From positions 1,716,874 through 1,780,873 of the forward strand of contig NC_013501.1 in NCBI RefSeq assembly GCF_000024845.1: a stretch of DNA of 64,000 bases, written 5' to 3'. The notes beneath the pieces were generated by a model, which worked only from the letters and a program-made list of their open reading frames with translations, was not told the origin of the DNA and did no database searches. Below are positions 30,213 through 43,207 of the stretch, piece after piece (within the stretch, counting starts at the first letter, position 1; each line of letters opens with the position of its first letter). This DNA comes from Rhodothermus marinus DSM 4252. Its GTDB lineage: Bacteria; Bacteroidota; Rhodothermia; Rhodothermales; Rhodothermaceae. The position numbers were made by a program, and so were the translations under genes.

Positions 30213-31889
30213 TCAGGCCGATTCCAGCTCTTCGGCGCGCAGCACGCGCGGATAACGGATCTGCTCCACGAGCGTCTGCACTTCCTTCGGAGGCGGCGGC
30301 GTGCGGAGCGAGACCAGAATCGTCACGATGAAGTTCAAGATCATACCGATCGTGCCCACGCCCTGCGCGTTGATGCCCAGGAAGCTGCTCAGGATCGGCT
30401 CCTCGAGGCCGAGCACGCGGTCGGCCCGCATCAGCACGATCAGCGTAAACGTAAAGAGCAGACCGGTCAGCATGCCGGCGATGGCCCCTTCCTTGGTGCA
30501 CCGCTTCCAGAACACGCCCAGTACGATGACCGGGAAGAAGCTGGAGCAGGCCAGGCCGAAGGCAAAGGCCACCACCTCGGCCACGAAGCCCGGCGGGAAG
30601 ATGCCCAGCAACCCGGCGATGATCACACCAAGGAAAATCATCACGCGGGCCACCGTCAGCTTCACATGATCGGGGGCGCTCGGGTTGATGATCTGGCCGT
30701 AGATGTCGTGCGCCATGGCCGAGCCGATCACCAGCAGCAGGCCCGAGGCCGTCGATAGCGCTGCGGCCAGACCACCGGCCGCCACCAGCCCGACCACCCA
30801 GGCCGACAGGTTGGCGATCTCCGGCGTGGCCAGCACGATAATGTCGCGGTCGATCGTGCTGAGCAACGCAGCCGCCGTCATGCCCTCACTCCACTCGCCT
30901 GTGCGGATCAGACCGGTCTGCGCCCAGTTCTGGACCCAGCTCAGATCGAGCATGCCCGTCGGCCCCAGCTCGCTGAACGCATTCAGGATATAGTAGCGGG
31001 CGAACATGGCCACGGCCGGCGCCGTCAGGTACAGCAAGCCGATGAAGAACAGCGCCCAGAAGGCCGACCAGCGGGCATCCACCACGCGCCGCACCGTGTA
31101 GAAGCGCACGATCACGTGCGGCAGACCGGCCGTTCCGGTCATCAGGGCGAACGTCACGCAGAAGACGTTCAGCATGTCCCAGCTCCCCTTGAAGGGCTGG
31201 CTGTAGAAGTTGCCCAGCAGCTCGTACTGGAGCTGGTCCAGCCGCGGCAGCACTTTACCCAGCGCCAGCTGCGGCAGCGGAATGCCCGTCAGCGTGTAGG
31301 CAATGGCGAAGGCTGGGATCAGGTAGGCGATGATCAGCACGGTGTACTGGGCCACCTGCGTCCAGGTGATTCCCTTCATGCCGCCCAGCACGGCGTAGAG
31401 CGAGACGATCGCCATGCCGATGACCACGCCCCAAACGATGTCCACCTGCAGGAAGCGGCTGAAGACGACGCCCACGCCGCGCATCTGCCCGGCCACGTAA
31501 GTAAAGGAAACGAACAGGGCCGCGATAGCCGCCACCACCCGGGCCGTATTGGAGTAGTAGCGTTCGCCCACGAAGTCGGGCACCGTGAACTTCCCGAACT
31601 TACGCAGGAACGGCGCCAGCAGCACGGCCAGCAGCACGTAGCCGCCCGTCCAGCCCATCAGGTAGACGGCCCCGTCATAGCCCATGAAAGAAATCAGCCC
31701 CGCCATCGAGATGAAGCTGGCCGCACTCATCCAGTCGGCGGCCACGGCCGCGCCGTTGGCAACGCTCGGGATGCCCTGCCCGGCCACGTAGAAACCGGCC
31801 GTGTCCTTCACGCGACTCCAGATGGCGATACCGATGTAGACGGAAAACGTGATCGCCACCCAGAAGAAAGTCCAACCAATGATGCTCAT
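30213..31889 (-). CDS. Sodium:solute symporter (SSS family), ActP-like acetate permease
   Basis: A 558-residue SSS-family transporter with about 13 membrane helices. GFYVAGQGIPSVANGAAVAADWMSAASFISMAGL and GYVLLAVLLAPFLRKFGKFTVPDFVGERYY, seen in short pieces such as ADWMSAASF and TVPDFVGER, are the typical Na+/solute core. The DUF4212 small partner encoded 36 nt upstream marks the VC_2705-type subfamily. Together with acs upstream, acetate or another short carboxylate is the likely substrate. It is the last gene of porin - DUF4212 - symporter, and a GGAGG site precedes the ATG. Confidence 0.92.
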   Translation of the reverse strand: MSIIGWTFFWVAITFSVYIGIAIWSRVKDTAGFYVAGQGIPSVANGAAVAADWMSAASFISMAGLISFMGYDGAVYLMGWTGGYVLLAVLLAPFLRKFGKFTVPDFVGERYYSNTARVVAAIAALFVSFTYVAGQMRGVGVVFSRFLQVDIVWGVVIGMAIVSLYAVLGGMKGITWTQVAQYTVLIIAYLIPAFAIAYTLTGIPLPQLALGKVLPRLDQLQYELLGNFYSQPFKGSWDMLNVFCVTFALMTGTAGLPHVIVRFYTVRRVVDARWSAFWALFFIGLLYLTAPAVAMFARYYILNAFSELGPTGMLDLSWVQNWAQTGLIRTGEWSEGMTAAALLSTIDRDIIVLATPEIANLSAWVVGLVAAGGLAAALSTASGLLLVIGSAMAHDIYGQIINPSAPDHVKLTVARVMIFLGVIIAGLLGIFPPGFVAEVVAFAFGLACSSFFPVIVLGVFWKRCTKEGAIAGMLTGLLFTFTLIVLMRADRVLGLEEPILSSFLGINAQGVGTIGMILNFIVTILVSLRTPPPPKEVQTLVEQIRYPRVLRAEELESA

Positions 31890-31925: not shown

Positions 31926-32216
31926 TCAGTGCGCCTGCGAGGGGGGTGCCGTCGTGCCGGCGTCTTCCTCGACACCGGCCGCCCGGTCCAGCTTACCCAT
32001 CATGATGGCGTAAGCCAGAATCAGCAGGATGAAGATCATAATGCTGCCCTGCTGGGCCATCCAGAACCCCATCGGGACGCCGGCGATCTTCAGCGTGTTG
32101 AGCGGTTCGACCAGAAAAATGCTCAGCACGTACCCGACGATGAACCAGATGACCAGCAGCCAGGCGGTACGCTTGCGCACTTCCCGCCAGTACGTTTTGC
32201 GGTCCATTTGCGCCAT
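31926..32216 (-). CDS. DUF4212 small membrane subunit of the SSS symporter
   Basis: A 96-residue protein with two membrane helices (TAWLLVIWFIVGYVLSIFLV and a second one about 25 residues on). It matches the DUF4212 family, which is encoded directly before VC_2705-type sodium/solute symporters and is presumed to be a partner subunit. The start MAQMDRKTYWREVRK at ATG 32216 has GGAGG 6 nt upstream; an in-frame GTG at 32228 overlaps that site and is unlikely. The acidic tail (about 78-96) is variable. Confidence 0.88.
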   Translation of the reverse strand: MAQMDRKTYWREVRKRTAWLLVIWFIVGYVLSIFLVEPLNTLKIAGVPMGFWMAQQGSIMIFILLILAYAIMMGKLDRAAGVEEDAGTTAPPSQAH

Positions 32217-32237
32217 GGCTTCCTCCACAGATGGTTG

Positions 32238-33467
32238 TTAGAAAAACAGAAACACGGTGAAATTCCCCCGGACGTTGGTGGCCGCTTCCGTGTCGCCGAT
32301 CGGCTTGTAGCGGTCGTCGAAGCGGCTGGCATAGGCCGCCGAGGTCACTTCCAGTTCGAAGGCGAAGCGGACCGGTCCGTGGTTCAGGTTCAGGCGCGGC
32401 GCCAGCCGCCAGAGCTGCTTGATGTTCGGCGCGCGGGCGGCCGTGGCCACGACCGGCCCGTCCAGGTCGCCGCTGGCCCCCTGGTTGACCAGATAGCCCA
32501 CAAACAGACCGGGAGCCACGCGCCCCGCGCCGTCGATGTCTACCCAGCCGGAAAGCAGTTGCAGCGGCTTAAAGGCCCCGGCGTAGTAGTCCCCCTGGCG
32601 ATCGGCGCTGGGCGCATAGACGTAGCCGCCCGTCATCAGGTGATCGGTCAGATCCCCACCGTAGGTGACCTTACCCCGCAGCGTCGCGCCCTTGCCGGCC
32701 AGCGTGAAGTAGCCCTGCACGGCCCAGGCAAAGAAACGGTCGCCCGTGGCCACCGGTCGCAGCGACTTCAGGTAGGCCCCGGCCCCTACCACGCTACCGC
32801 CCTGGCTGAAGAGCTGCAGATGCGTGTGCAGCGCCGGAAGCGCCGAAAGTTGTTGTTGCTTGATCCCCGAAACACCGTTGAAGCTGATGTCCTGAAAGGC
32901 GTCGCGCTGCCAGGCCAGCGCTCCGATGAAACGGACGCCCTGGCCTTTGAGTGTGGCGCGAATCTGCGGCTGGCGGGCAAACGGCTGGAACGGCGCACCG
33001 GTCGTCGTCGCTACCGTGCGCGGAAAAGCCGCCAGGGTAAACAGCGGCGACCACTCCTGACCGAAGAGCAATTCGGCCTGATCCCAGGCCAGCCGCACAA
33101 AAGCGCGCCGCAGGCGGAAGGTACTCTCCAGTCCGTTTTGAGGCCCGAAGAAGTCCGATTCAAAATACCCTGTCACCTGCGCCCCGAGGGCCTCCGGCAG
33201 GTCGCCGATCGTCAGGCTCAGCCGCGAGAAGAACACAAACGCCCCGAGGTTATCCGTCTCCGTGGCTTCAGATTTGGGCAGCGGGAACAGGTGAAATTCC
33301 CCGTCGCGAGCAGCGGCAACCTGGCGCGTGTCGTACAGGTACTCCGCTTTGATGAAGCCGCCGACTTTGAACGACTGGGCCCAGAGCGTCAGCGGCGTGG
33401 CCAGGAAGAGCAGCAGCAGGCCGAAACCCCGGCCCATACCCGGCGTACGACGTAACGTGTGCTTCAT
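32238..33467 (-). CDS. Outer-membrane porin, DcaP-like
   Basis: A 409-residue exported beta-barrel protein. After a signal peptide (LTLWAQ), SFKVGGFIKAEYLYDTRQ and the alternating hydrophobic strands through the C-terminal FTVFLFF indicate a porin of the DcaP/trimeric outer-membrane type, with DNLGAFVFFSRLSLTIG and LRRAFVRLAW as early strands. It is the first gene of the porin - DUF4212 - symporter operon, so it probably lets small carboxylates such as acetate cross the outer membrane. A consensus AAGGAGGTGA ribosome-binding site precedes the ATG. Confidence 0.82.
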   Translation of the reverse strand: MKHTLRRTPGMGRGFGLLLLFLATPLTLWAQSFKVGGFIKAEYLYDTRQVAAARDGEFHLFPLPKSEATETDNLGAFVFFSRLSLTIGDLPEALGAQVTGYFESDFFGPQNGLESTFRLRRAFVRLAWDQAELLFGQEWSPLFTLAAFPRTVATTTGAPFQPFARQPQIRATLKGQGVRFIGALAWQRDAFQDISFNGVSGIKQQQLSALPALHTHLQLFSQGGSVVGAGAYLKSLRPVATGDRFFAWAVQGYFTLAGKGATLRGKVTYGGDLTDHLMTGGYVYAPSADRQGDYYAGAFKPLQLLSGWVDIDGAGRVAPGLFVGYLVNQGASGDLDGPVVATAARAPNIKQLWRLAPRLNLNHGPVRFAFELEVTSAAYASRFDDRYKPIGDTEAATNVRGNFTVFLFF

Positions 33468-33652: not shown

Positions 33653-35638
33653 TCAGCGGTTGAGTCGATTCTGCACCAGCTCTTCGACGACCGACGGATC
33701 GGCCAGCGTCGAAATATCCCCCAGGTCCTGATATTCGTTGGCCGCAATCTTGCGCAGAATGCGGCGCATGATCTTGCCGGAACGCGTCTTGGGCAAAGCC
33801 GGCGTAAACTGGAGCAGATCGATCGTGAAGATCGGCCCCAGCAAGTTCCGCACGTGCTGGATCAATTCCTTGCGGAGTTCGTCGCTGGGCTCGAAGCCCG
33901 CCTTCAGCGTCACGAAGGCGTAGATGCCCTGCCCTTTGATTTCGTGCGGATAGCCCACCACGGCCGCCTCTGCCACCGCCTCATGCTGCACCAGCGCGCT
34001 TTCGATTTCGGCCGTGCCCAGACGGTGACCGGAGACGTTGATCACGTCGTCGACGCGTCCCACGATCCAGTAGTAGCCGTCCTCGTCCCGACGTGCGCCG
34101 TCTCCCGTGAAGTACTTGCCCGGGAAGCGGGTGAAGTAGGTCTCCACGAAGCGATCATGGGCCCTGTAGACCGTGCGCATCTGGCCGGGCCACGAATCGA
34201 GAATGACCAGCATGCCGTCGGCCGGCCCTTCCAGGATGTTCCCGTCGTTGTCCACGATGGCCGGCTGGATACCGAAGAACGGCAGCGTGGCCGAGCCCGG
34301 CTTGAGCGGCGTGGCGCCCGGCAGCGGCGTAATCATGATGCCGCCCGTTTCGGTCTGCCACCAGGTGTCCACGATCGGGCAGCGTTCTTCGCCCACCACC
34401 CGGTAGTACCAGAGCCAGGCTTCCGGGTTGATCGGCTCCCCGACCGTGCCCAGCAGCCGGAGCGACTTCCGGCTCGTCTTCTTCACCCACTCGTCGCCTT
34501 CGCGCATCAACGCCCGGATGGCCGTAGGTGAGGTGTACAGGATGTTCACCTGGTATTTGTCGACCACCTGCCAGATACGCGACGGATCCGGGTAGTTCGG
34601 CGTGCCCTCGAAAAGCACCTCGGTCACGCCGTTGGCCAGCGGCCCGTAGACGATGTAGCTGTGGCCTGTCACCCAGCCGATGTCGGCCGCGCACCAGTAG
34701 ACGTCGCCGTCGTGATAGTCGAAGACGAGCTGGTGCGTGAGCGAGGTGTAGACCAGATAGCCGCCGGTCGTATGCACCACGCCCTTGGGCTTGCCTGTCG
34801 AACCCGAGGTGTAGAGGAAGAAGAGCGGATCTTCGGCATCCATCACCTCGGGCGGGCACTCGGCCGAAACGGTCTGGATTTCCTCATGATACCAGCGGTC
34901 GCGGCCTTCCACCCACGGGATGTCGCCGCCCGTGCGACGCACGACCAGCACGGTCTTCACGTCCGGGCAACGTTCGAGCGCCTTATCGGCATTCCGCTTG
35001 AGCGGCACGCGACGCCCGGCCCGGAGCCCCTCGTCGGCCGTGATCAGGTAGGTCGCCTCGCCGTCCAGAATACGATCGGCCAGCGAGTCGGGCGAAAAGC
35101 CCGCAAAGACCACCGAGTGGATCGCCCCGATCCGGGCGCAGGCCAGCATGGCGTAGATGGCTTCCGGGATCATGGGCAGGTAGATCGTCACCCGGTCGCC
35201 TTTCTTCACGCCGTGCTTTTTGAGCACATTGGCCAGCCGGCAGACTTCTTCGTAGAGCTGGCGGTAGGTGATCGCCTTGCTCTCTTCGTTCGGATCGTCC
35301 GGCTCCCAGTAGAAGGCCACCTGATCGGCCCGCTTTTCCAGATGACGGTCGATGCAGTTGTAGGCCGCGTTCAGTTTGCCGCCCTCGAACCAGCGGATAT
35401 AGAGATTCGAGGGGTCGTACGACGTGTTTTTAACCGTATGGAACGGCTCGAACCAGGTGATGCGCTGGGCCTGCTCGCGCCAGAAGCCTTCCGGATCTTT
35501 GATGGAGCGCTCGTAGAGCTCACGATATTGCTCCATCGAGCTAATGAAAGCCCTTTTGCGAAACGCTTCCGGAGGATCGAAGACCAGTCCGCGTCCCGAG
35601 AAGGCCGCCGTTTCTCTGATCGTTTCCTGAACACCCAT
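33653..35638 (-). CDS. acs: Acetyl-CoA synthetase (acetate--CoA ligase)
   Basis: A 661-residue AMP-forming acetyl-CoA synthetase, converting acetate, ATP and CoA to acetyl-CoA. Motifs: [50 protein letters not shown] (given here by its core [10 protein letters not shown]), [31 protein letters not shown] and, at the C terminus, [14 protein letters not shown] with the acylation-controlled lysine. Length is standard. GAGGAG precedes the ATG, and an AT-rich gap lies upstream. It is flanked by uptake genes on one side and the SSS-kinase signalling operon on the other. Confidence 0.97.
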
Positions 35639-35794: not shown

Positions 35795-36739
35795 TTAGGA
35801 AAAGATTGGCAGTACCAGACGCAAGCGAGCACCCCGGGCGTCGCGCTGCACCCAGAGATCGGCTTCGTGCCAGGCCAGCACTTCCGAAAGCGTCAGCGAC
35901 AGCCCCTGTTCGTCCAGTGTCAGCGTCTGCGTCAGCCAGCGCTGCAGGCGCTCCGGAGGCAGTCCCCGCCCCTGCCAGCACAGGTCAATCCAGAGCAATC
36001 TTTCGTCGCTTTCGGCCCGTAGCACCCATTCTTTGCCCCGGGGCAACACCTGGCGGAGCTGTCGTCCCAGTAGCTCCCAGAGCCGGAACCAGAGCCGCCG
36101 ATCTGCCTGCACGATACCGGGCGGACACGCGGCCGCTATCCGCACGCGCCGGGCGTCCTGCTGCAGCGCCGAGGCCATCAGTTGCAGCAACGCGGCGGCC
36201 GGCATACGCTCCAACGGCCAGTGAGCCTGCAGGTACCGGGTGTAGGCCGAAACCGTTTGCTCCAGCAGCCGGGCCAGCGCTTCCGTCTGCTCCCGGATGA
36301 TGTGCTGAAACTGCGCCGCCAGGTCTGGCGCCATATCGGGATAAGAGGCGAGCGTCTCGATCGCGGCCCGGATGTTGGCGACCGGCCGCCGCAGCCCCTC
36401 CAGCAACTGCCGCAACAGCAGCGGCTGCCAGTCGTCGGATCGGGTGGAAGCCGAACGAACCTGCAGTACGAACTCCTCCCCGCCGGCCAGCGGCCAGGCC
36501 TGCACCGACAGCAGTCGGCCCTCCGGGCTGCGCACATGGCCGGTGGTTTCCGGCGGCCAGGGCAATCCGGGCAAAACGGCCGGCAATCTGGCTTCGGTCC
36601 CTTCGTCGGCGGGCAGCGTCAGCCACTTCCGGGCCCGCCGATTGGCCCACAGTACACGTCCCGCCGCATCGCAGAGGATCACTCCATCCGGCAGCGCCTC
36701 CAGTGCGGCCGCCAGTTTGCTTGCGTTCGGCGTCTTCAA
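35795..36739 (-). CDS. PAS-containing degenerate histidine kinase (pseudo-kinase)
   Basis: A 314-residue soluble protein with a PAS domain (about 8-95), a DHp-like helical region (about 105-175) and an ATPase-like region (about 180-312). In the SSS-kinase encoded two genes upstream, the DHp motif is HELRTPL; here the matching segment is EGLRRPV, so the phospho-accepting histidine is replaced by E114. The N-box asparagine is replaced (ELLGRQ around 222), and the G1/G2 glycine motifs are lost. It is unlikely to be an active kinase. Start is TTG 36739, overlapping the response-regulator stop as TTGA. It is the last gene of the operon. Confidence 0.7.
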   Translation of the reverse strand: MKTPNASKLAAALEALPDGVILCDAAGRVLWANRRARKWLTLPADEGTEARLPAVLPGLPWPPETTGHVRSPEGRLLSVQAWPLAGGEEFVLQVRSASTRSDDWQPLLLRQLLEGLRRPVANIRAAIETLASYPDMAPDLAAQFQHIIREQTEALARLLEQTVSAYTRYLQAHWPLERMPAAALLQLMASALQQDARRVRIAAACPPGIVQADRRLWFRLWELLGRQLRQVLPRGKEWVLRAESDERLLWIDLCWQGRGLPPERLQRWLTQTLTLDEQGLSLTLSEVLAWHEADLWVQRDARGARLRLVLPIFS

Positions 36740-37134
36740 GGCTGCTCCGCTTCTCCAGACCGGTTCAGCAGGGTGCGCACGGTCTCCATCACTTCGCGAA
36801 TGGCAAACGGCTTGACGATGTAGGCGTCGGCCCCGACGGCTCGACCTTTTTCCAGGTCGGTCTCCCGCCCGCGCGCCGTCACCAGCACTACCTTGATGGC
36901 CTGTCCGTCCGGACCCGCTTTGAGCTGCCGGCACACCTCAAACCCGCTCATTCCCGGCAGCATGACGTCGAGCAAGACCAGGTCGGGCGGCACATTCCGG
37001 CAGGCCTCCAGCGCCGCCTCGCCGTCTTCCACGACGTGCACCTGATAGCCTTCCTGCTCCATCAGAAAGCGCAGCGACAGCGCGATGCTGGGTTCGTCTT
37101 CGACAATCAATATGCGGGGGGTCTGGCCGGTCAT
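36736..37134 (-). CDS. Receiver-only response regulator
   Basis: A 132-residue CheY-like receiver without an output domain. The acidic pair is in IVEDEPS, the phospho-acceptor aspartate in LVLLDVMLPGMSG, the conserved threonine in VTARG and the lysine in IVKPF. The gene starts 6 nt after the stop of the SSS-kinase, with a GGAG site. It is the natural partner of that kinase. Because it has no DNA-binding domain, its output must go through another protein, such as the pseudo-kinase coupled to it by a 4-nt overlap or the ArsR regulator at the operon head. Confidence 0.93.
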   Translation of the reverse strand: MTGQTPRILIVEDEPSIALSLRFLMEQEGYQVHVVEDGEAALEACRNVPPDLVLLDVMLPGMSGFEVCRQLKAGPDGQAIKVVLVTARGRETDLEKGRAVGADAYIVKPFAIREVMETVRTLLNRSGEAEQP

Positions 37135-37140
37135 CGCTCC

Positions 37141-39900
37141 TCATGGATTCAGTCGGACGGTGTCGCGCACGGGCTGCCTCGTTCCATCGGACGCCGGCAG
37201 GCGCGGCAGCGTGAACGAAAACGTCGCCCCGTGGCCGGGCTCGCTTTCGACCCAGATACGGCCATGGTGATGCTGCACGATGCGCTGGGCGATGGCCAGT
37301 CCCAGCCCGGTGCCCGGCGGCCGCCTTCCAGTGCTCGTGTGCACCTGCCGGAATTTATCGAAAATCGTAGCCTGATCCTCGGGGGCAATGCCCGGACCGT
37401 TGTCCTCCACGTCCACACGCACGCGGTCGGGCTCCACCAGCAGCCGCACCGCGATACGCCCGTCCTCCGGGTTGCAGAACTTGACGGCGTTCGAGAGCAG
37501 GTTCAACAGCACCTGCACCAGCTGATCGCGGTCGCCCAGCACGTAGCAGGGCGTCTCGGGGACAGAAACCGTCAGCGTGATTCCGTTGAACTGAACATGC
37601 GGCTGAATGGCCTCGACGGCCTCTTCGATCACTTCCTGCATGCGCACCGGCTCCAGGTTCAATTCCACGGTGCCCGACTCCAGCTTCTGGAGCGTCAGTA
37701 CCTGGTTGATCAGCCGGGTCAACCGCTCGGCCTCTTTGATGATGATGCCCAGAAACTCCTGGCGTTGCGCTTCGGGCAGGTTCGGATTGGCGTGCATGAT
37801 TTCACTGAAAGCCCGGATCGAGGTCAGCGGCGTGCGCAGCTCGTGGGTGATCGTCGAGATGAACTCGTCTTTGAGCCGGTCCAGTTCTTTGAGGCGCTCG
37901 TTGGCCGCCTGCAGCTCGCGCGTGGCCCGTTCCAGTTCGGCCGACTTCCGTTCCAGTTCGTGGCTGTAGGCGATCACCTGCTGCGTCTCGTCCAGAATGT
38001 CCATGACCTCGCGCAGGCTCAGCGGCTCCTCCTTGACCACCGAAGCGATCAGCACCCGGGCCGAGGCCGATCCGATGGCACCGGCCAGTAGTCGCTCGGC
38101 GTGCTGCACCACCTCGGCCGTTGCGGTCACCGTACCCCCACCCTGCGCCAGTACCGGACGCAGCGCTTCGTCCGCCTGCTTTTTGCCCAGAAACCGCCGC
38201 AATAGCTGTTGCAGATCCGACACGTAGGCGGTCCCGCGCCAGGTGGCCTCGCCCGGCCGCCCCGACAGGCGAAACACGTCCACGAACGCCCGCGCCTGCA
38301 GCAGCTCCTCCACGCGCTGCTGCGTGAACAGCGACACGCCCACGTACAGCCCCGCATTGAACAGCAGGCTCCAGAAGAGCGCATGCGAGATCGGATCGAA
38401 GCCCTCCAGTCCGAACAACTGGTACGGACGTAGCCAGCCGACGCCCCAGGGGCCGTTTTCGGTGAACGAGACCGGCAACAGGCCGGCGTCGACCAGCGAC
38501 GGCAACGGGAGCGTGTAGCCCCAGATCAAAAAGCCGGCGATCAGCCCGCAGAGCGCGCCGGCCCGCGTGCCACGCCGCCAGTACATGCCGCCCAGCATCG
38601 CCGGCGCAAACTGCGCGACCGCGGCAAAGGAAATCAGTCCGATCGAAACCAGCGCATAGGCATGCGCAATGGCGTGGAAGTACAGATAGCTCAGCACCAG
38701 CACCAGGACAATGCCGCCCCGACGAATGCCCAGCAGCAGCCCGGTGAGCCGTCCACGTTGCGCCAGCCGGAGAAAACGAATGCGCAGCAGGATGGGCATG
38801 ATCAGATCGTTGCTGATCATGGTGCTGAGCGCCACGGTGGCCACGATGACCATGCTGGTGGCCGCCGAAAAGCCACCGATAAAGGCCAACAGCGCCAGCA
38901 GCTCCTGCCCATGCGCCAGGGGAATCGCCAGCACGAACATGTCGGCATCGACCTGTCCGCCCGGAAAGGCCATCAATCCGGCCAGCGCAATGGGCAACAC
39001 GAACAGGTTGATCAACCACAGATACAGCGGAAACAGCCAGATCGCCTTGCGCAGGTGGCGCTCGTCCACGTTTTCGACGACGGCCACCTGGAACTGGCGG
39101 GGCAGAAACAGAATGGCCAGCATGGCCAGCAGGGTCATCCAGAACCACTGACCGTAGGCGCCCGGCCCGAGCGCCTCTTCCATGGTCAGCAGCCGGCGGA
39201 ATTCCGGGCGGGCCAACGCGCGGCCAAACAGATCGGCCGGTCCGTCGTAGAGCCCGAACGTCACAAACAGACCGACCGCCACAAATGCCGGGAGCTTCAC
39301 CAGCGACTCGAAGGCGATGGCCGCTACCAGCCCCTCGTGACGCTCGGTGGCGTCCAGATGGCGCGTCCCGAACAGAATCGAAAACAACGCCAGCGCCAGC
39401 GTCACGTACAGCGCCGTGTCGTCCAGCAGACTTTCGGTCGGGGTCGGGGTGGGACGCCCGCTAAGCACCTGAAAGCTAACGGAAATGGCCTTGAGCTGAA
39501 GCGCGATGTAGGGCACGCCGCCGGTGACGGCGATCACGGTCACCAGGGCGGCCAGACCGCTGCTTTTGCCGTAGCGCGAGGCCACAAAGTCGGCGATCGA
39601 AGTGATCCGGTACACCTTGCTGATCCGGATCATCTTTCGCAGCACCATCCACCAGAGCACGGCCGTCAGCGTGGGCCCCAGATAGATGGGCAGATACCCC
39701 ACGCCACTGCTGGCCGCCCGTCCCACGCTCCCGTAAAAGGTCCATGCCGTGCAGTAGACGGCCAGCGAGAGCGCATAGATGTACGGGCTGCTGATGATGC
39801 TTCGGCCCTGCTCGGCCCGCCGATCGCCATACGTGGCAATGGCAAACAGCAGGCCGATGTACAGCAGTGCGATGAGAAAGATGAAACCGCCCTGGAGCAT
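37141..39900 (-). CDS. SSS transporter-histidine kinase fusion (CbrA/CrbS-like sensor)
   Basis: A 919-residue hybrid. Residues about 1-530 are a 13-helix sodium:solute symporter-type domain (TAWTFYGSVGRAASSGVGYLPIYLGPT-type start, shown here as FYGSVGRAA). A linker with a STAC-like/coiled part leads to a complete kinase core. H686 lies in HELRTPL, the N-box LLNLLSNAVKF is near 800, G1 is DNGPGIAP (833-840) and G2 GTGLGLA (863-869). Such proteins (CbrA, CrbS) sense carbon sources; CrbS controls acs in Vibrio and Pseudomonas. Its position next to acs here suggests the same role. Confidence 0.92.
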   Translation of the reverse strand: MLQGGFIFLIALLYIGLLFAIATYGDRRAEQGRSIISSPYIYALSLAVYCTAWTFYGSVGRAASSGVGYLPIYLGPTLTAVLWWMVLRKMIRISKVYRITSIADFVASRYGKSSGLAALVTVIAVTGGVPYIALQLKAISVSFQVLSGRPTPTPTESLLDDTALYVTLALALFSILFGTRHLDATERHEGLVAAIAFESLVKLPAFVAVGLFVTFGLYDGPADLFGRALARPEFRRLLTMEEALGPGAYGQWFWMTLLAMLAILFLPRQFQVAVVENVDERHLRKAIWLFPLYLWLINLFVLPIALAGLMAFPGGQVDADMFVLAIPLAHGQELLALLAFIGGFSAATSMVIVATVALSTMISNDLIMPILLRIRFLRLAQRGRLTGLLLGIRRGGIVLVLVLSYLYFHAIAHAYALVSIGLISFAAVAQFAPAMLGGMYWRRGTRAGALCGLIAGFLIWGYTLPLPSLVDAGLLPVSFTENGPWGVGWLRPYQLFGLEGFDPISHALFWSLLFNAGLYVGVSLFTQQRVEELLQARAFVDVFRLSGRPGEATWRGTAYVSDLQQLLRRFLGKKQADEALRPVLAQGGGTVTATAEVVQHAERLLAGAIGSASARVLIASVVKEEPLSLREVMDILDETQQVIAYSHELERKSAELERATRELQAANERLKELDRLKDEFISTITHELRTPLTSIRAFSEIMHANPNLPEAQRQEFLGIIIKEAERLTRLINQVLTLQKLESGTVELNLEPVRMQEVIEEAVEAIQPHVQFNGITLTVSVPETPCYVLGDRDQLVQVLLNLLSNAVKFCNPEDGRIAVRLLVEPDRVRVDVEDNGPGIAPEDQATIFDKFRQVHTSTGRRPPGTGLGLAIAQRIVQHHHGRIWVESEPGHGATFSFTLPRLPASDGTRQPVRDTVRLNP

Positions 39901-39903
39901 GGC

Positions 39904-40110
39904 TCAGGGATTTTCCTCCGGCGGGGTCGTCCGACGTCGCTCCATCAGCCAGATGAGCAGGCCGATCACCAGGGCCCACACACCGTAAAGGTACACGTAC
40001 AGCACGGGCATCCCCAGCAGCAGACGCTCCCGGCTGAAGAGTGACAGCAGCGGAAAGTTCATCAGCAGCAGGCCCAGCACAAAGAGGGCCACCAGGCGTG
40101 CGCGTGTCAT
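39904..40110 (-). CDS. Small two-helix membrane protein (DUF3311-like)
   Basis: A 68-residue protein with two membrane helices (about 5-22 and 35-57), separated by the loop RERLLLGMPVLYVYLYGVW. The length and the P-x-L-Y-x-Y-x-x-W pattern recall DUF3311-type partners encoded before SSS-family proteins. It overlaps the ArsR stop as ATGA and lies 3 nt before the SSS-kinase start. It is probably a structural partner of the SSS domain, just as DUF4212 partners the symporter at 30213. The family assignment is tentative. Confidence 0.7.
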   Translation of the reverse strand: MTRARLVALFVLGLLLMNFPLLSLFSRERLLLGMPVLYVYLYGVWALVIGLLIWLMERRRTTPPEENP

Positions 40111-40439
40111 GGCGGTGTTCCGTCCGGTGGAGCTTCCAGGCTCCGGCACAGCAGCAGGAACAGTCCGGCCAGCGAAGGATCGGCCAGCCGGTAGCGCACA
40201 TGCACCCCGTCGCGGCGCCGCTGCACCAGTCCTTCGCGGGCCAGCTGGTTCAGGTGCTTGCTCACGTTCGGCTGCCGCAGACCCAGCGCATCGACCATCT
40301 CCTGGACACTCAGCTCGCCGTGCGTGCGCAGCAGATTCAGCAGCCGCAACCGCACCGGATCGCCCAGCACCCGCAACCGGCGTGCGGCCGGTTCCAACAG
40401 GGTTTCGGGCACCAGCGGTGCCTGTTCAACCACGCCCAT
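40107..40439 (-). CDS. ArsR/SmtB family transcriptional regulator
   Basis: A 110-residue winged-helix regulator: LEPAARRLRVLGDPVRLRLLNLL, ELSVQEMVDALGLRQPNVSKHLNQL (recognition helix) and the wing LVQRRRDGVHVRYRL are typical of ArsR. I see no metal-binding cysteines of the classical CxC type, so a metabolite or protein signal is more likely than a metal. It heads the SSS-kinase operon, which makes it a candidate for the DNA-binding output missing from the receiver-only regulator. The start used is ATG 40439; a longer reading would enter the divergent promoter gap. Confidence 0.88.
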   Translation of the reverse strand: MGVVEQAPLVPETLLEPAARRLRVLGDPVRLRLLNLLRTHGELSVQEMVDALGLRQPNVSKHLNQLAREGLVQRRRDGVHVRYRLADPSLAGLFLLLCRSLEAPPDGTPP

Positions 40440-40519
40440 CCCGGATTGCCTTTCAGGATTCTGCTGTTTTGTTTCTATCTTACAGCGTAACGCGCCGAAA
40501 ATCAAATGCCCACGGCTTT
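40440..40519. promoter_or_regulatory. Divergent promoter gap, arsR operon / membrane exonuclease
   Basis: 80 bp between two divergent starts. On the minus strand, TTTG followed after 20 nt by TAAGATAG is a weak -33/-7 match. A short palindrome GCGTAACGC (40485-40493) lies between the two genes and could be an ArsR site. No clear ribosome-binding site precedes the rightward ATG. Confidence 0.35.
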
Positions 40520-42370
40520 ATGCCGCTGTCGGCTCGCTTCTGGAAAACCTACGCTGTGCTGGCGCTGCTGGGCCTGCTGCTGCTGGCCGCGCCCAATCTG
40601 ATCTGGTGGCTGAGCGCTTCGCCCTCGGAACGGGCCTGGCTGCTGGCACGCTATCCGTTTCTGCTGGTGCTCATCGTGCTGGTGCTGGGCGGCATCTATG
40701 CGCTCTGGCTGCATGTGTACCAGACGCACGTGCGCCCGATCGACCAGCTCACCGATGCGATCCATCAGGTACTGGATGGCCACACGCTGCCGCCCCTCCC
40801 GCAGGCCAGCACCCGCGAACTCCGAAAACTGCAGGAAGCGGTGACCGAACTGGCCCGCCGCCATCGCCTCCACTCCACAACCCCGGCTGCCGCCCCCCTT
40901 CACCGCGAGCGCAACCTGCTGGCCACGCTGCTGGGCGAGTTGCCCGAAGCCGTGCTCGTGTGCCGGACCTCCGGCCAGATCCTGCTCTATAACGAAACGG
41001 CCCGCCGCCTGCTCGAGACGCCCGAACATCCGGGCGCCATTGGCCTGGGCCGCTCCATCTTTCACAGCCTGGATCGGGACCTGATCGTCTTCGCCCTGGA
41101 CGAACTGGCCTATCGGTTGCGCCAGCAACATCCCCGTCCCACCGTCCATTTCGCCACCTGCCTGCCTTCAGGGCAACTTGTGCGCGTGCAAGCCGCCCCG
41201 ATCCGCGACGAAGCGGACCGCCTGGAAACCTTCATGCTGCTCCTGCAGCCGCTCCGCTCAGAAGCCGAACCGTTCGAGATCATCCGAGGGGCCGATCTGC
41301 TGCAGGCCCTGGACCTGCAACTCCGGGAAGCAGGCGTTTCGCTCCAGCTCGAAGGCGTCACAGGCACCCTCTGGCTCCGGGTTCGCCTGCCTGAGGCCTT
41401 CGAAGCGCTCCGGCGACTGGCCTTTCAGCTACATCAGGAAACTTCCTGCACACAACTACTGGCTCGCACCACCTCGGAAAATGGCCGCGTGCATCTGTGG
41501 CTTCGTCCGCTCGATGGTCACCCGCAAGCACTCGAACGGCTGCAACCCTATGTGCAGGAACCCTCTCTGCAGGCGCTCCTGCAGGAACATCAGGCCACCC
41601 TGCAGCTCGACGGCGAGGCCCTGCGCCTGACGCTTCCGGCCTCGCCGCCCCCGCACTCGGGCGCGGCCCGTGCCTTTCTGCCCGGACCCTCGGCCGCGCG
41701 TCGTCCGATTTATGCCGATCTATCCCTGCTGGAAACCTCCGAGGCCACGCCGCTCGACGATCGCCCGCTGCGCAGCCTGATCTACACGGTCTTCGATACC
41801 GAAACCACCGGCCTGCATCCCGAGCAGGGCGACGAAATCATCGCTATCGGGGCCGTCCGCATCGTCGGCGGCCGCATCCGCCCCGAGGAAACCTTCGACC
41901 AACTCGTCAATCCTCGTCGACCGATCTCGCTCGATTCGGTGCGCGTGCACGGCATTCAGCCCGTCCTGCTTCAGGACAAGCCACCGATCGAAGAAGTGCT
42001 CCCGCGCTTCTATCGCTTTGCCCGGGATACCGTGCTGGTGGGCCACAACGTGGCTTTCGATCTGAAATTCATCCGCCAGAAAGAAAAAGCTCTGGGCCTG
42101 CGCTTCGACCAGCCGGTGCTCGATACGATGTTGCTAGCGGCCGTGGTCGATCCGGAACGTCAGCATTACGGACTGGATGAGCTGGCTGCGGCTTTCGGAA
42201 TCGAACCGGTGGGACGACACTCGGCCCTGGGAGATGCGCTGATTACGGCCGAGCTGCTCCTGCGTCTGCTGCCCCTGCTTGAGCAGCGCGGCATCCACAC
42301 CCTGCGCCAGGCCCGCGAGGCGATCCAGCAGTCCCGACCGGCCCGCAACCGCTACGGGCGCATCTCCTGA
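40520..42370 (+). CDS. Membrane-anchored PAS protein with DEDDh (DnaQ-like) 3'-5' exonuclease domain
   Basis: A 616-residue protein. Two membrane helices (about 12-31 and 46-64) are followed by a HAMP-like linker (65-115), a PAS domain (about 130-245), and a middle region (about 255-375) that aligns by eye with the ATPase-like part of the pseudo-kinase at 35795. A complete DEDDh exonuclease follows (about 415-585): Exo I FDTETTG, Exo II VGHNVAFDLKF, Exo III HSALGDA. Compared with a sensor kinase, the DHp helices are missing and the output is a nuclease. Such proteins are often annotated as DNA polymerase III epsilon. The substrate is unknown. It is divergent from the SSS-kinase operon. Confidence 0.88.
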   Translation: MPLSARFWKTYAVLALLGLLLLAAPNLIWWLSASPSERAWLLARYPFLLVLIVLVLGGIYALWLHVYQTHVRPIDQLTDAIHQVLDGHTLPPLPQASTRELRKLQEAVTELARRHRLHSTTPAAAPLHRERNLLATLLGELPEAVLVCRTSGQILLYNETARRLLETPEHPGAIGLGRSIFHSLDRDLIVFALDELAYRLRQQHPRPTVHFATCLPSGQLVRVQAAPIRDEADRLETFMLLLQPLRSEAEPFEIIRGADLLQALDLQLREAGVSLQLEGVTGTLWLRVRLPEAFEALRRLAFQLHQETSCTQLLARTTSENGRVHLWLRPLDGHPQALERLQPYVQEPSLQALLQEHQATLQLDGEALRLTLPASPPPHSGAARAFLPGPSAARRPIYADLSLLETSEATPLDDRPLRSLIYTVFDTETTGLHPEQGDEIIAIGAVRIVGGRIRPEETFDQLVNPRRPISLDSVRVHGIQPVLLQDKPPIEEVLPRFYRFARDTVLVGHNVAFDLKFIRQKEKALGLRFDQPVLDTMLLAAVVDPERQHYGLDELAAAFGIEPVGRHSALGDALITAELLLRLLPLLEQRGIHTLRQAREAIQQSRPARNRYGRIS

Positions 42371-43176
42371 AGCGGCGGGGCCGGTGCGCTCCAGTTCGGC
42401 ACCGCGCCCGCTTCCCGATCCTGCAGAATGCGGCGCATCAGTTCATCCGTGACGTTTGCGTAGTCCCGGGCTCCACGTGAGTAGGGTTCGCGCGTGAATA
42501 CGGTGGACCCGTCCTCGTAGGAGCGGGCCAGCGAGGCGCTGGTGCGGATGACCGCCTCCAGGACGCGATCGCCATAACGGCGACGCATGTAACGTCGGTA
42601 GAGCTGGTGTGCCCGCTTGCGGGCATCCACCTGGGTAAACAGAAAAAGCGGCGGGAAAAGCGTCGGGTTGAGCTTTTCGCGCACCAGTTGCACCGTCTGG
42701 GCCGTCTGCTCGGCGCCGAGCACCGGCTGATACTCGGGCGTCACGGGAACGAGCACGTGCTGGCTGGCCACCAGCGCATTCAGACTGTAGACGGTAATGG
42801 CGGCGGCCGTATCGAAGAGGACCACGTCGTAGTCCAGCCCACTCTGCTCGAGGGCTTCCTTGGCCCAGAGTACGTCCGTGGGGCGATTGAGCTGGCGCAT
42901 CACGCGCGTCATCGCCGTCGAGGAAGGCAGCAGATCGAATCCCCCCACCGTATGGCGGCGTACCTCGCGCAATGAACGCGCCGGATCGAACAGGGCCAGC
43001 ACCGAATGCTCCTCAGGGGGCTCGGGCACGCCCATAACCCGGGTCAGAAAACCCTGTGGATCCAGATCGATAACGAGCACCCGGTGGCCGCTGAGCCCGA
43101 GCGCTGCTGCGATGTGGATGGCCGTCGTGGTCTTACCGGTGCCGCCCTTGTGGTTGCAGATGGTCAGAGTAATCAT
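42352..43176 (-). CDS. Orphan ParA family ATPase
   Basis: A 274-residue ParA/Soj-type P-loop ATPase. The deviant Walker A is CNHKGGTGKTTTAIHIA, Walker A' lies in VLVIDLDPQGFLTRVMG, and DYDVVLFDTAAAITVYSLNAL is the Walker B region. The proline of the usual DxxP is absent (DTAAAI). No ParB gene or parS-like repeat is adjacent, so it is probably an orphan that positions some protein or complex, not the chromosomal partition ATPase. The start is ATG 43176; an upstream TTG adds two residues. Its end overlaps the convergent exonuclease gene by 19 nt. Confidence 0.9.
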   Translation of the reverse strand: MITLTICNHKGGTGKTTTAIHIAAALGLSGHRVLVIDLDPQGFLTRVMGVPEPPEEHSVLALFDPARSLREVRRHTVGGFDLLPSSTAMTRVMRQLNRPTDVLWAKEALEQSGLDYDVVLFDTAAAITVYSLNALVASQHVLVPVTPEYQPVLGAEQTAQTVQLVREKLNPTLFPPLFLFTQVDARKRAHQLYRRYMRRRYGDRVLEAVIRTSASLARSYEDGSTVFTREPYSRGARDYANVTDELMRRILQDREAGAVPNWSAPAPPLQEMRP

Positions 43177-43207
43177 GTGCAACCGGTTTGCTGACCTCGC
43201 TTAAGGT

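Follow-up and report, generated by a model that had tools for sequence, protein, structure and literature searches.

A membrane exonuclease and a soluble pseudo-kinase with related, apparently dead kinase modules at an acetate-type locus of Rhodothermus marinus

Introduction

The usual outputs of two-component systems are transcription, cyclic-nucleotide turnover and motility. Here we analyse a locus of Rhodothermus marinus DSM 4252, lying in a window of 64,000 nucleotides (the whole stretch under study; positions 1,716,874 to 1,780,873 of NC_013501.1), that encodes a sensor kinase with an SSS domain and a stand-alone receiver (REC) together with two proteins that appear to carry dead kinase modules: P0001, a predicted membrane-bound DEDDh exonuclease, and P0002, a soluble pseudo-histidine-kinase.

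The pseudo-kinase calls to mind DivL of Caulobacter, a pseudo-histidine-kinase that binds phosphorylated DivK through its DHp domain (PMC4211667). As in DivL, PAS is combined with a fold of DHp and catalytic (CA) domains, the phospho-acceptor His is replaced and the partner is a stand-alone receiver; the family profile matches DivL with E=4.6e-5. In contrast, DivL acts on the kinase CckA, carries Tyr in place of the His and has no nuclease, whereas the family described here carries Glu and is fused to, or encoded beside, a DEDDh exonuclease. By analogy, the pseudo-kinase may sense phosphorylated REC in the manner of DivL.

The gene neighbourhood resembles that of CrbS/CrbR (MxtR/ErdR) with PP_0353/PP_0354, which also involves an SSS-kinase, acs, an ActP-type symporter and an exonuclease of the RNase_T family. 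In Pseudomonas putida, the MxtR/ErdR regulon contains the soluble exonuclease PP_0353, whose loss delays growth on pyruvate; the authors of that study have speculated on mRNA decay (PMC9927547). The CrbS/R regulon includes a CBS-domain protein with the exonuclease (PP_0353/PP_0354), as do the clusters of the family studied here. CrbS/MxtR is a hybrid kinase that has its own REC, of which the role inside MxtR was described as unknown, and that works with a DNA-binding regulator (PMC7918813). The REC of R. marinus, unlike that of the hybrid kinase, is stand-alone, and no DNA-binding response regulator encoded with the kinase was found at the locus (other regulators of the genome were not screened). 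PP_0353-type enzymes also differ from P0001 itself, being soluble, adjacent to DUF294 and without a PAS or kinase part, whereas P0001 is a membrane protein of 616 residues with no DUF294 in its cluster. Orthology of P0001 with PP_0353 was unsupported, as soluble DUF294-linked exonucleases of that type branch apart and lie distant in the exonuclease tree, from which the Pseudomonas copy, having missed the motif cut, was left out. The first-pass annotation of this locus, made from the sequence alone, had proposed a new type of output. A soluble exonuclease controlled in the CrbS/R manner had, however, been reported before (PMC9927547); in the open-access literature, we found no paper describing a PAS- and kinase-fused membrane exonuclease or a stand-alone pseudo-kinase of this kind.

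Results

The same annotation had read P0001 as two membrane helices, a HAMP-like linker, a PAS domain and a DEDDh exonuclease, and had aligned its middle by eye with the ATPase-like half of P0002. The architecture is borne out by hydropathy, a HAMP match below the cut-off, a PAS domain modelled with a predicted local distance difference test (pLDDT) score >90, and a Pfam RNase_T match over residues 424-580 (E=2.5e-38). The by-eye alignment needed profiles, because direct BLAST between the two proteins was significant for the PAS domains alone (E=1e-5); the middle regions alone gave E=1.8, and residues 251-375 of P0001 had no credible Pfam match. In profile-profile comparison, these residues aligned with residues 175-312 of P0002 (probability 96.5, E=9e-10), with the LLQ, ERLQ and LRLxLP landmarks picked out earlier all in register, and the PAS and middle of P0001 together spanned all of P0002 with a single clean gap at its DHp (E=6e-15). 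Against a hidden Markov model (HMM) built from the exonuclease-fused module, P0002 scored 131 bits, compared with 37 bits against the core of real SSS-kinases; other kinases of the genus scored 11-21 and 187-195 bits, respectively. By these scores, P0002 is of the same family as the kinase-like head of the exonuclease, a kinship that had been proposed at the outset.

The profile of the fused module hit only histidine kinases in the PDB, DivL among them, with both DHp and CA covered, in keeping with the degenerate HATPase fold suspected at first; it likewise aligned with DHp and CA of the neighbouring SSS-kinases (E=3e-20). The middle of this genus's exonucleases gave no signal when compared directly with a real kinase core, so its link to kinases runs through the pseudo-CA of the family. 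A phmmer search of the PDB with P0002 returned no match, whereas the family profile did give PDB matches. AlphaFold models of residues 118-400 of P0001 (pLDDT 89.5) and of P0002 (pLDDT 84.8), whose alignments included family sequences, so that they do not bear independently on homology, both matched histidine kinases first in Foldseek comparison with the PDB, including WalK, VicK and ThkA, and not unrelated folds; the modelled middle of P0001 fitted the catalytic region of CpxA at 3.7-4.0 A over about 140 columns. WalK/VicK and ThkA, which contain PAS, were the best PDB matches by both sequence profile and fold. These are active kinases, whereas the family described here has lost the H, N and G boxes and has a nuclease as its output. 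The DHp and Bergerat-type CA of a histidine-kinase fold are both recognizable in the family, P0001 having the CA half only.

Searches of plasmids by tblastn found full-length relatives of P0001 in Paracoccus, Cupriavidus and elsewhere, about 40% identical to it, and a scan in which each species was represented by one genome yielded at least 529. The best 80 of these loci, picked by similarity to P0001, were kept and read; most are from Beta- and Gammaproteobacteria, others from Alphaproteobacteria, Desulfobacterota and Bacteroidota. Paracoccus denitrificans PD1222 and Cupriavidus necator are laboratory strains among the carriers of the family. Between PAS and the CA-like region, most sampled relatives hold a 72-residue segment, a dead DHp, that P0001 lacks. 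The phospho-acceptor position in the family is Glu in 52 of 64 cases and His in one; Glu also occupies it in P0002 (Glu114, in LLEGLRRP) and in other stand-alone pseudo-kinases. The N-box Asn, noted as missing in both proteins by the first reading, is lost from the family as well (60 of 77 members have Arg at this position), and the glycine boxes D-x-G-x-G and G-x-G are not kept. N-box, G1 and G2 are all missing from the CA domain of P0001, with the pseudo-DHp deleted immediately N-terminal to it; in P0002, Pfam recognizes PAS, and HisKA-like and HATPase-like stretches below the cut-off. SSS-kinases retain H and N in all 46 scorable cases. Neither P0001, without a DHp, nor P0002, with its Glu, shows the His, N-box Asn and glycine boxes of an active sensor kinase, and judged by these residues both carry catalytically dead kinase modules.

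The nuclease, in contrast to the kinase part, is intact: the five DEDDh residues are invariant in all 81 exonucleases and complete in P0001 (D426, E428, D514, H567 and D572), which, with the RNase_T fold, is a predicted DEDDh 3'-5' exonuclease. It shares its catalytic domain and these residues with PolC-type and DnaQ enzymes, and its closest solved structure by sequence is the PolC exonuclease 2p1j (E=2.8e-34), as would suit a housekeeping nuclease of proofreading or repair that merely carries decaying kinase debris. We consider this highly improbable. Unlike PolC and DnaQ, P0001 has a membrane anchor, PAS and a dead kinase, with no polymerase or helicase partner; the fused exonuclease occurs sporadically (in the phylum sample, 9 of 296 genomes have it) and is tied to acetate-type clusters; and across phyla the dead-kinase module is preserved as a full fold with its own E-x-x-R signature. 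The family also includes a minimal relative (L241:3760-4758, minus strand) that has two hydrophobic helices directly before the exonuclease, with PAS and dead kinase undetectable and no neighbouring REC.

Presence of a full-length pseudo-DHp follows that of an adjacent REC. In the first set of loci, 56 exonucleases had both, 9 the pseudo-DHp only, none REC only and 12 neither; a second set, freshly drawn from Alphaproteobacteria and Burkholderiales, gave 16, 6, 1 and 21, respectively, with Fisher p-values (8e-9 and 5e-6) that are too small because the tests ignore relatedness. Four of five Bacteroidota loci had both and one had neither. The pseudo-DHp was lost separately in Alphaproteobacteria, Burkholderiales, Desulfobacterota and Bacteroidota. 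Scored with an HMM of the pseudo-DHp, SSS-kinases reached a median of 43.7 bits, and none of 20 other kinases from this genome exceeded 17; an HMM of the pseudo-CA showed no such preference. On the simplest reading, the module gave up catalysis but preserved the surface on which the shared receiver docks; a resemblance to SSS-kinases in the pseudo-DHp only is expected if that surface is the part retained.

The kinase region could instead be a mere scaffold for dimerisation and transmission of the PAS signal, with control exerted at PAS by redox state or a small ligand, and REC acting on a neighbour, for example DUF294. PAS is indeed retained in many exonucleases without pseudo-DHp and pseudo-CA, in the second set DUF294 accompanies the exonuclease more constantly than REC does, and ubiquinone is stated to inhibit MxtR phosphorylation (PMC7918813). 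However, a scaffold would leave unexplained both the tracking of REC by the pseudo-DHp in separate lineages and the specific likeness of the pseudo-DHp to the DHp of SSS-kinases, and we regard it as unlikely.

The usual cluster, found in Beta-, Gamma- and Alphaproteobacteria, consists of acs, SSS-kinase, REC, exonuclease, DUF294 and an SSS symporter, and the REC and exonuclease genes in many proteobacterial clusters overlap stop-to-start; Bacteroidota loci show a kinase-REC-exonuclease cluster. Among the 58 loci for which at least 6 kb of upstream sequence was available, REC is found in 43, DUF294 in 39 and an SSS-kinase in 38; the tie to the SSS-kinase and acs cluster that had been seen in R. 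marinus thus recurs across phyla. Five of seven congener genomes have the whole set of kinase, REC, P0002 and exonuclease; the other two lack kinase, P0002 and exonuclease alike, one of them (G005) being a fragmented assembly. The window itself has the SSS-kinase beside acs and an ActP-type symporter, as in a CrbS/CrbR switch, and a dead DHp-CA encoded with a stand-alone receiver, as in a DivL-type system. Linkage to DUF294 was rejected for this locus, since the gene sits elsewhere in the genome; it also occurs in a congener without the exonuclease. Elsewhere DUF294 (CBS plus nucleotidyltransferase) is a very constant neighbour of the exonuclease (L031, L034, L045, L058 and most loci) and also adjoins short exonucleases without kinase parts; a nucleotidyltransferase and an exonuclease could add nucleotides to, and remove them from, a shared target. 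On a plasmid of Paracoccus sp. SMMA_5_TC (L036), the order is DUF294-REC-exonuclease; the SSS-kinase gene is missing, while REC and the pseudo-DHp remain.

The first-pass annotation had explained P0001 as a sensor kinase that lost its DHp and whose output became a nuclease. The kinase-derived head and the missing DHp in this genus hold, but not the order of events: because most relatives still have a dead DHp between PAS and CA, its loss appears to have come after the nuclease fusion, in several lineages. In the tree, the nuclease domain of this genus falls within the membrane exonucleases of proteobacteria, with Hydrogenophilus as its neighbour (support 95/89). This suggests that the exonuclease was acquired horizontally, presumably in this direction, by a lineage already holding the kinase-REC-pseudo-kinase operon. 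Five genomes from other families of Rhodothermia have stand-alone pseudo-kinases together with REC and SSS-kinase, and in none of the five is a fused exonuclease found near them; one (G043) has a pair of DUF294 and soluble exonuclease elsewhere in its genome. Recent duplication of P0001 as the origin of P0002 was rejected on tree position, although the pseudo-kinase tree is poorly resolved in its deep branches, and because P0002 belongs with the stand-alone pseudo-kinases, which occur without the fused exonuclease. Within the genus (congeners L146-L148), identity is 93-95% for the SSS-kinase, ~75% for the exonuclease and 63-67% for P0002, the latter two evolving much faster than the kinase.

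P0002 and the exonuclease could be homologous and yet functionally separate in R. marinus, P0002 acting on REC or the SSS-kinase as a phosphate sink, in feedback or as an anti-kinase, and the horizontally acquired exonuclease running on PAS input alone. The five Rhodothermia genomes fit such a separation, as do the divergent transcription of the two genes and the grouping with Hydrogenophilus of an exonuclease that has lost its pseudo-DHp and so may have lost REC control. However, the exonuclease never occurs in the genus without kinase, REC and P0002, P0002 supplies exactly the segment that the exonuclease lacks, and elsewhere both modules are one protein; we therefore judge separate functions to be somewhat unlikely, albeit the most serious of the alternatives.

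The features of the locus are collected in Table 1. The minus-strand genes run SSS-kinase, REC, P0002, acs, porin-like gene, DUF4212-like gene and symporter, with P0001 divergent. REC (Response_reg over residues 8-119, E=5.9e-29) overlaps the start of P0002.

Table 1. Features of the locus, in window coordinates
Feature	Coordinates	Strand	Remarks
P0001, membrane PAS-pseudoCA-DEDDh exonuclease, 616 residues	40520..42370	+	
P0001, two transmembrane helices, residues about 10-31 and 42-67	40547..40720	+	Hydropathy
P0001, HAMP-like linker, residues 69-114	40724..40861	+	Pfam HAMP 21.4 bits, below cut-off; aligned in homologues
P0001, PAS, residues about 134-247	40919..41260	+	Pfam PAS 21.1 bits; family PAS HMM 112 bits
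P0001, degenerate kinase CA domain, residues 251-375	41270..41644	+	Profile and fold comparison
P0001, predicted DEDDh 3'-5' exonuclease domain, residues 417-600	41768..42319	+	
P0002, soluble pseudo-histidine-kinase (PAS, pseudo-DHp, pseudo-CA), 314 residues	35795..36739	-	TTG start
P0002, pseudo-DHp, residues about 98-173	36221..36448	-	
REC, stand-alone receiver, 132 residues	36736..37134	-	Phospho-acceptor site kept; no output domain
SSS-domain sensor histidine kinase	37141..39900	-	H, N and G boxes intact
acs, acetate-CoA ligase	33653..35638	-	TIGR02188 1043.7 bits
Putative porin-like protein between acs and symporter genes	32238..33467	-	No NCBIfam match
Small two-helix membrane protein, putatively DUF4212-like	31926..32228	-	Label from position and composition
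VC_2705-family sodium/solute (ActP-like) symporter	30213..31889	-	TIGR03648 750 bits
ArsR/SmtB-type regulator	40107-40505	-	Between SSS-kinase and P0001, divergent from P0001
ParA-like ATPase	42352-43182	-	Tail-to-tail 19-base overlap with P0001 3' end

Discussion

We lean towards placing these proteins in a branch of two-component signalling that has a nuclease as its output and a pseudo-kinase as the docking partner of phosphorylated REC. The chances seem to us even for the wider proposal, in which an SSS-kinase and a stand-alone REC control a membrane DEDDh exonuclease through a His-to-Glu dead kinase in a widespread, undescribed class of output, such that nutrient sensing reaches nucleic acid turnover without a transcription factor and the dead kinase is sometimes a separate subunit, as here.

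In the mechanism that we infer, including its signal and the direction of control, the SSS-kinase would sense acetate or a related monocarboxylate and phosphorylate REC. In most relatives, phosphorylated REC would then dock on the dead DHp of the membrane PAS-pseudoDHp-pseudoCA-exonuclease, and the kinase fold, devoid of catalysis, would relay the change on docking to the C-terminal DEDDh nuclease. In R. marinus, where the exonuclease is without docking helices, P0002, encoded directly after REC, may take over the docking role, probably by pairing with the PAS/pseudo-CA region of the exonuclease at the membrane; such contact is proposed because fused relatives exist and because P0002 carries exactly the segment that the exonuclease lacks. 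The substrate is likely to be RNA, and therefore transcripts or small RNAs may be trimmed when acetate use switches.

Several points weigh against this proposal, beyond the overstated significance of the association between pseudo-DHp and REC. Operon decay could remove the two together, and the DHp resemblance would arise equally if the module descends from an SSS-kinase. For nine exonucleases of the first set and six of the second, all with a pseudo-DHp, no adjacent REC was detected (sequence-based detection could miss divergent receivers), and at one locus (L149) REC is present and a pseudo-DHp undetectable. In the second set, more exonucleases have DUF294 nearby than have REC. Only the neighbouring genes point to acetate, and P0002 may have another target, since stand-alone pseudo-kinases in other Rhodothermia work without a fused exonuclease.

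If the proposed control of the exonuclease by a docked receiver is correct, a receiver-gated membrane exonuclease would add nuclease activity to the known outputs of two-component systems, and the principle of DivL would extend from one cell-cycle protein to a multi-phylum family. It may also offer a possible reason for the presence of an exonuclease of unknown role in the CrbS/R acetate/pyruvate regulon of Pseudomonas.

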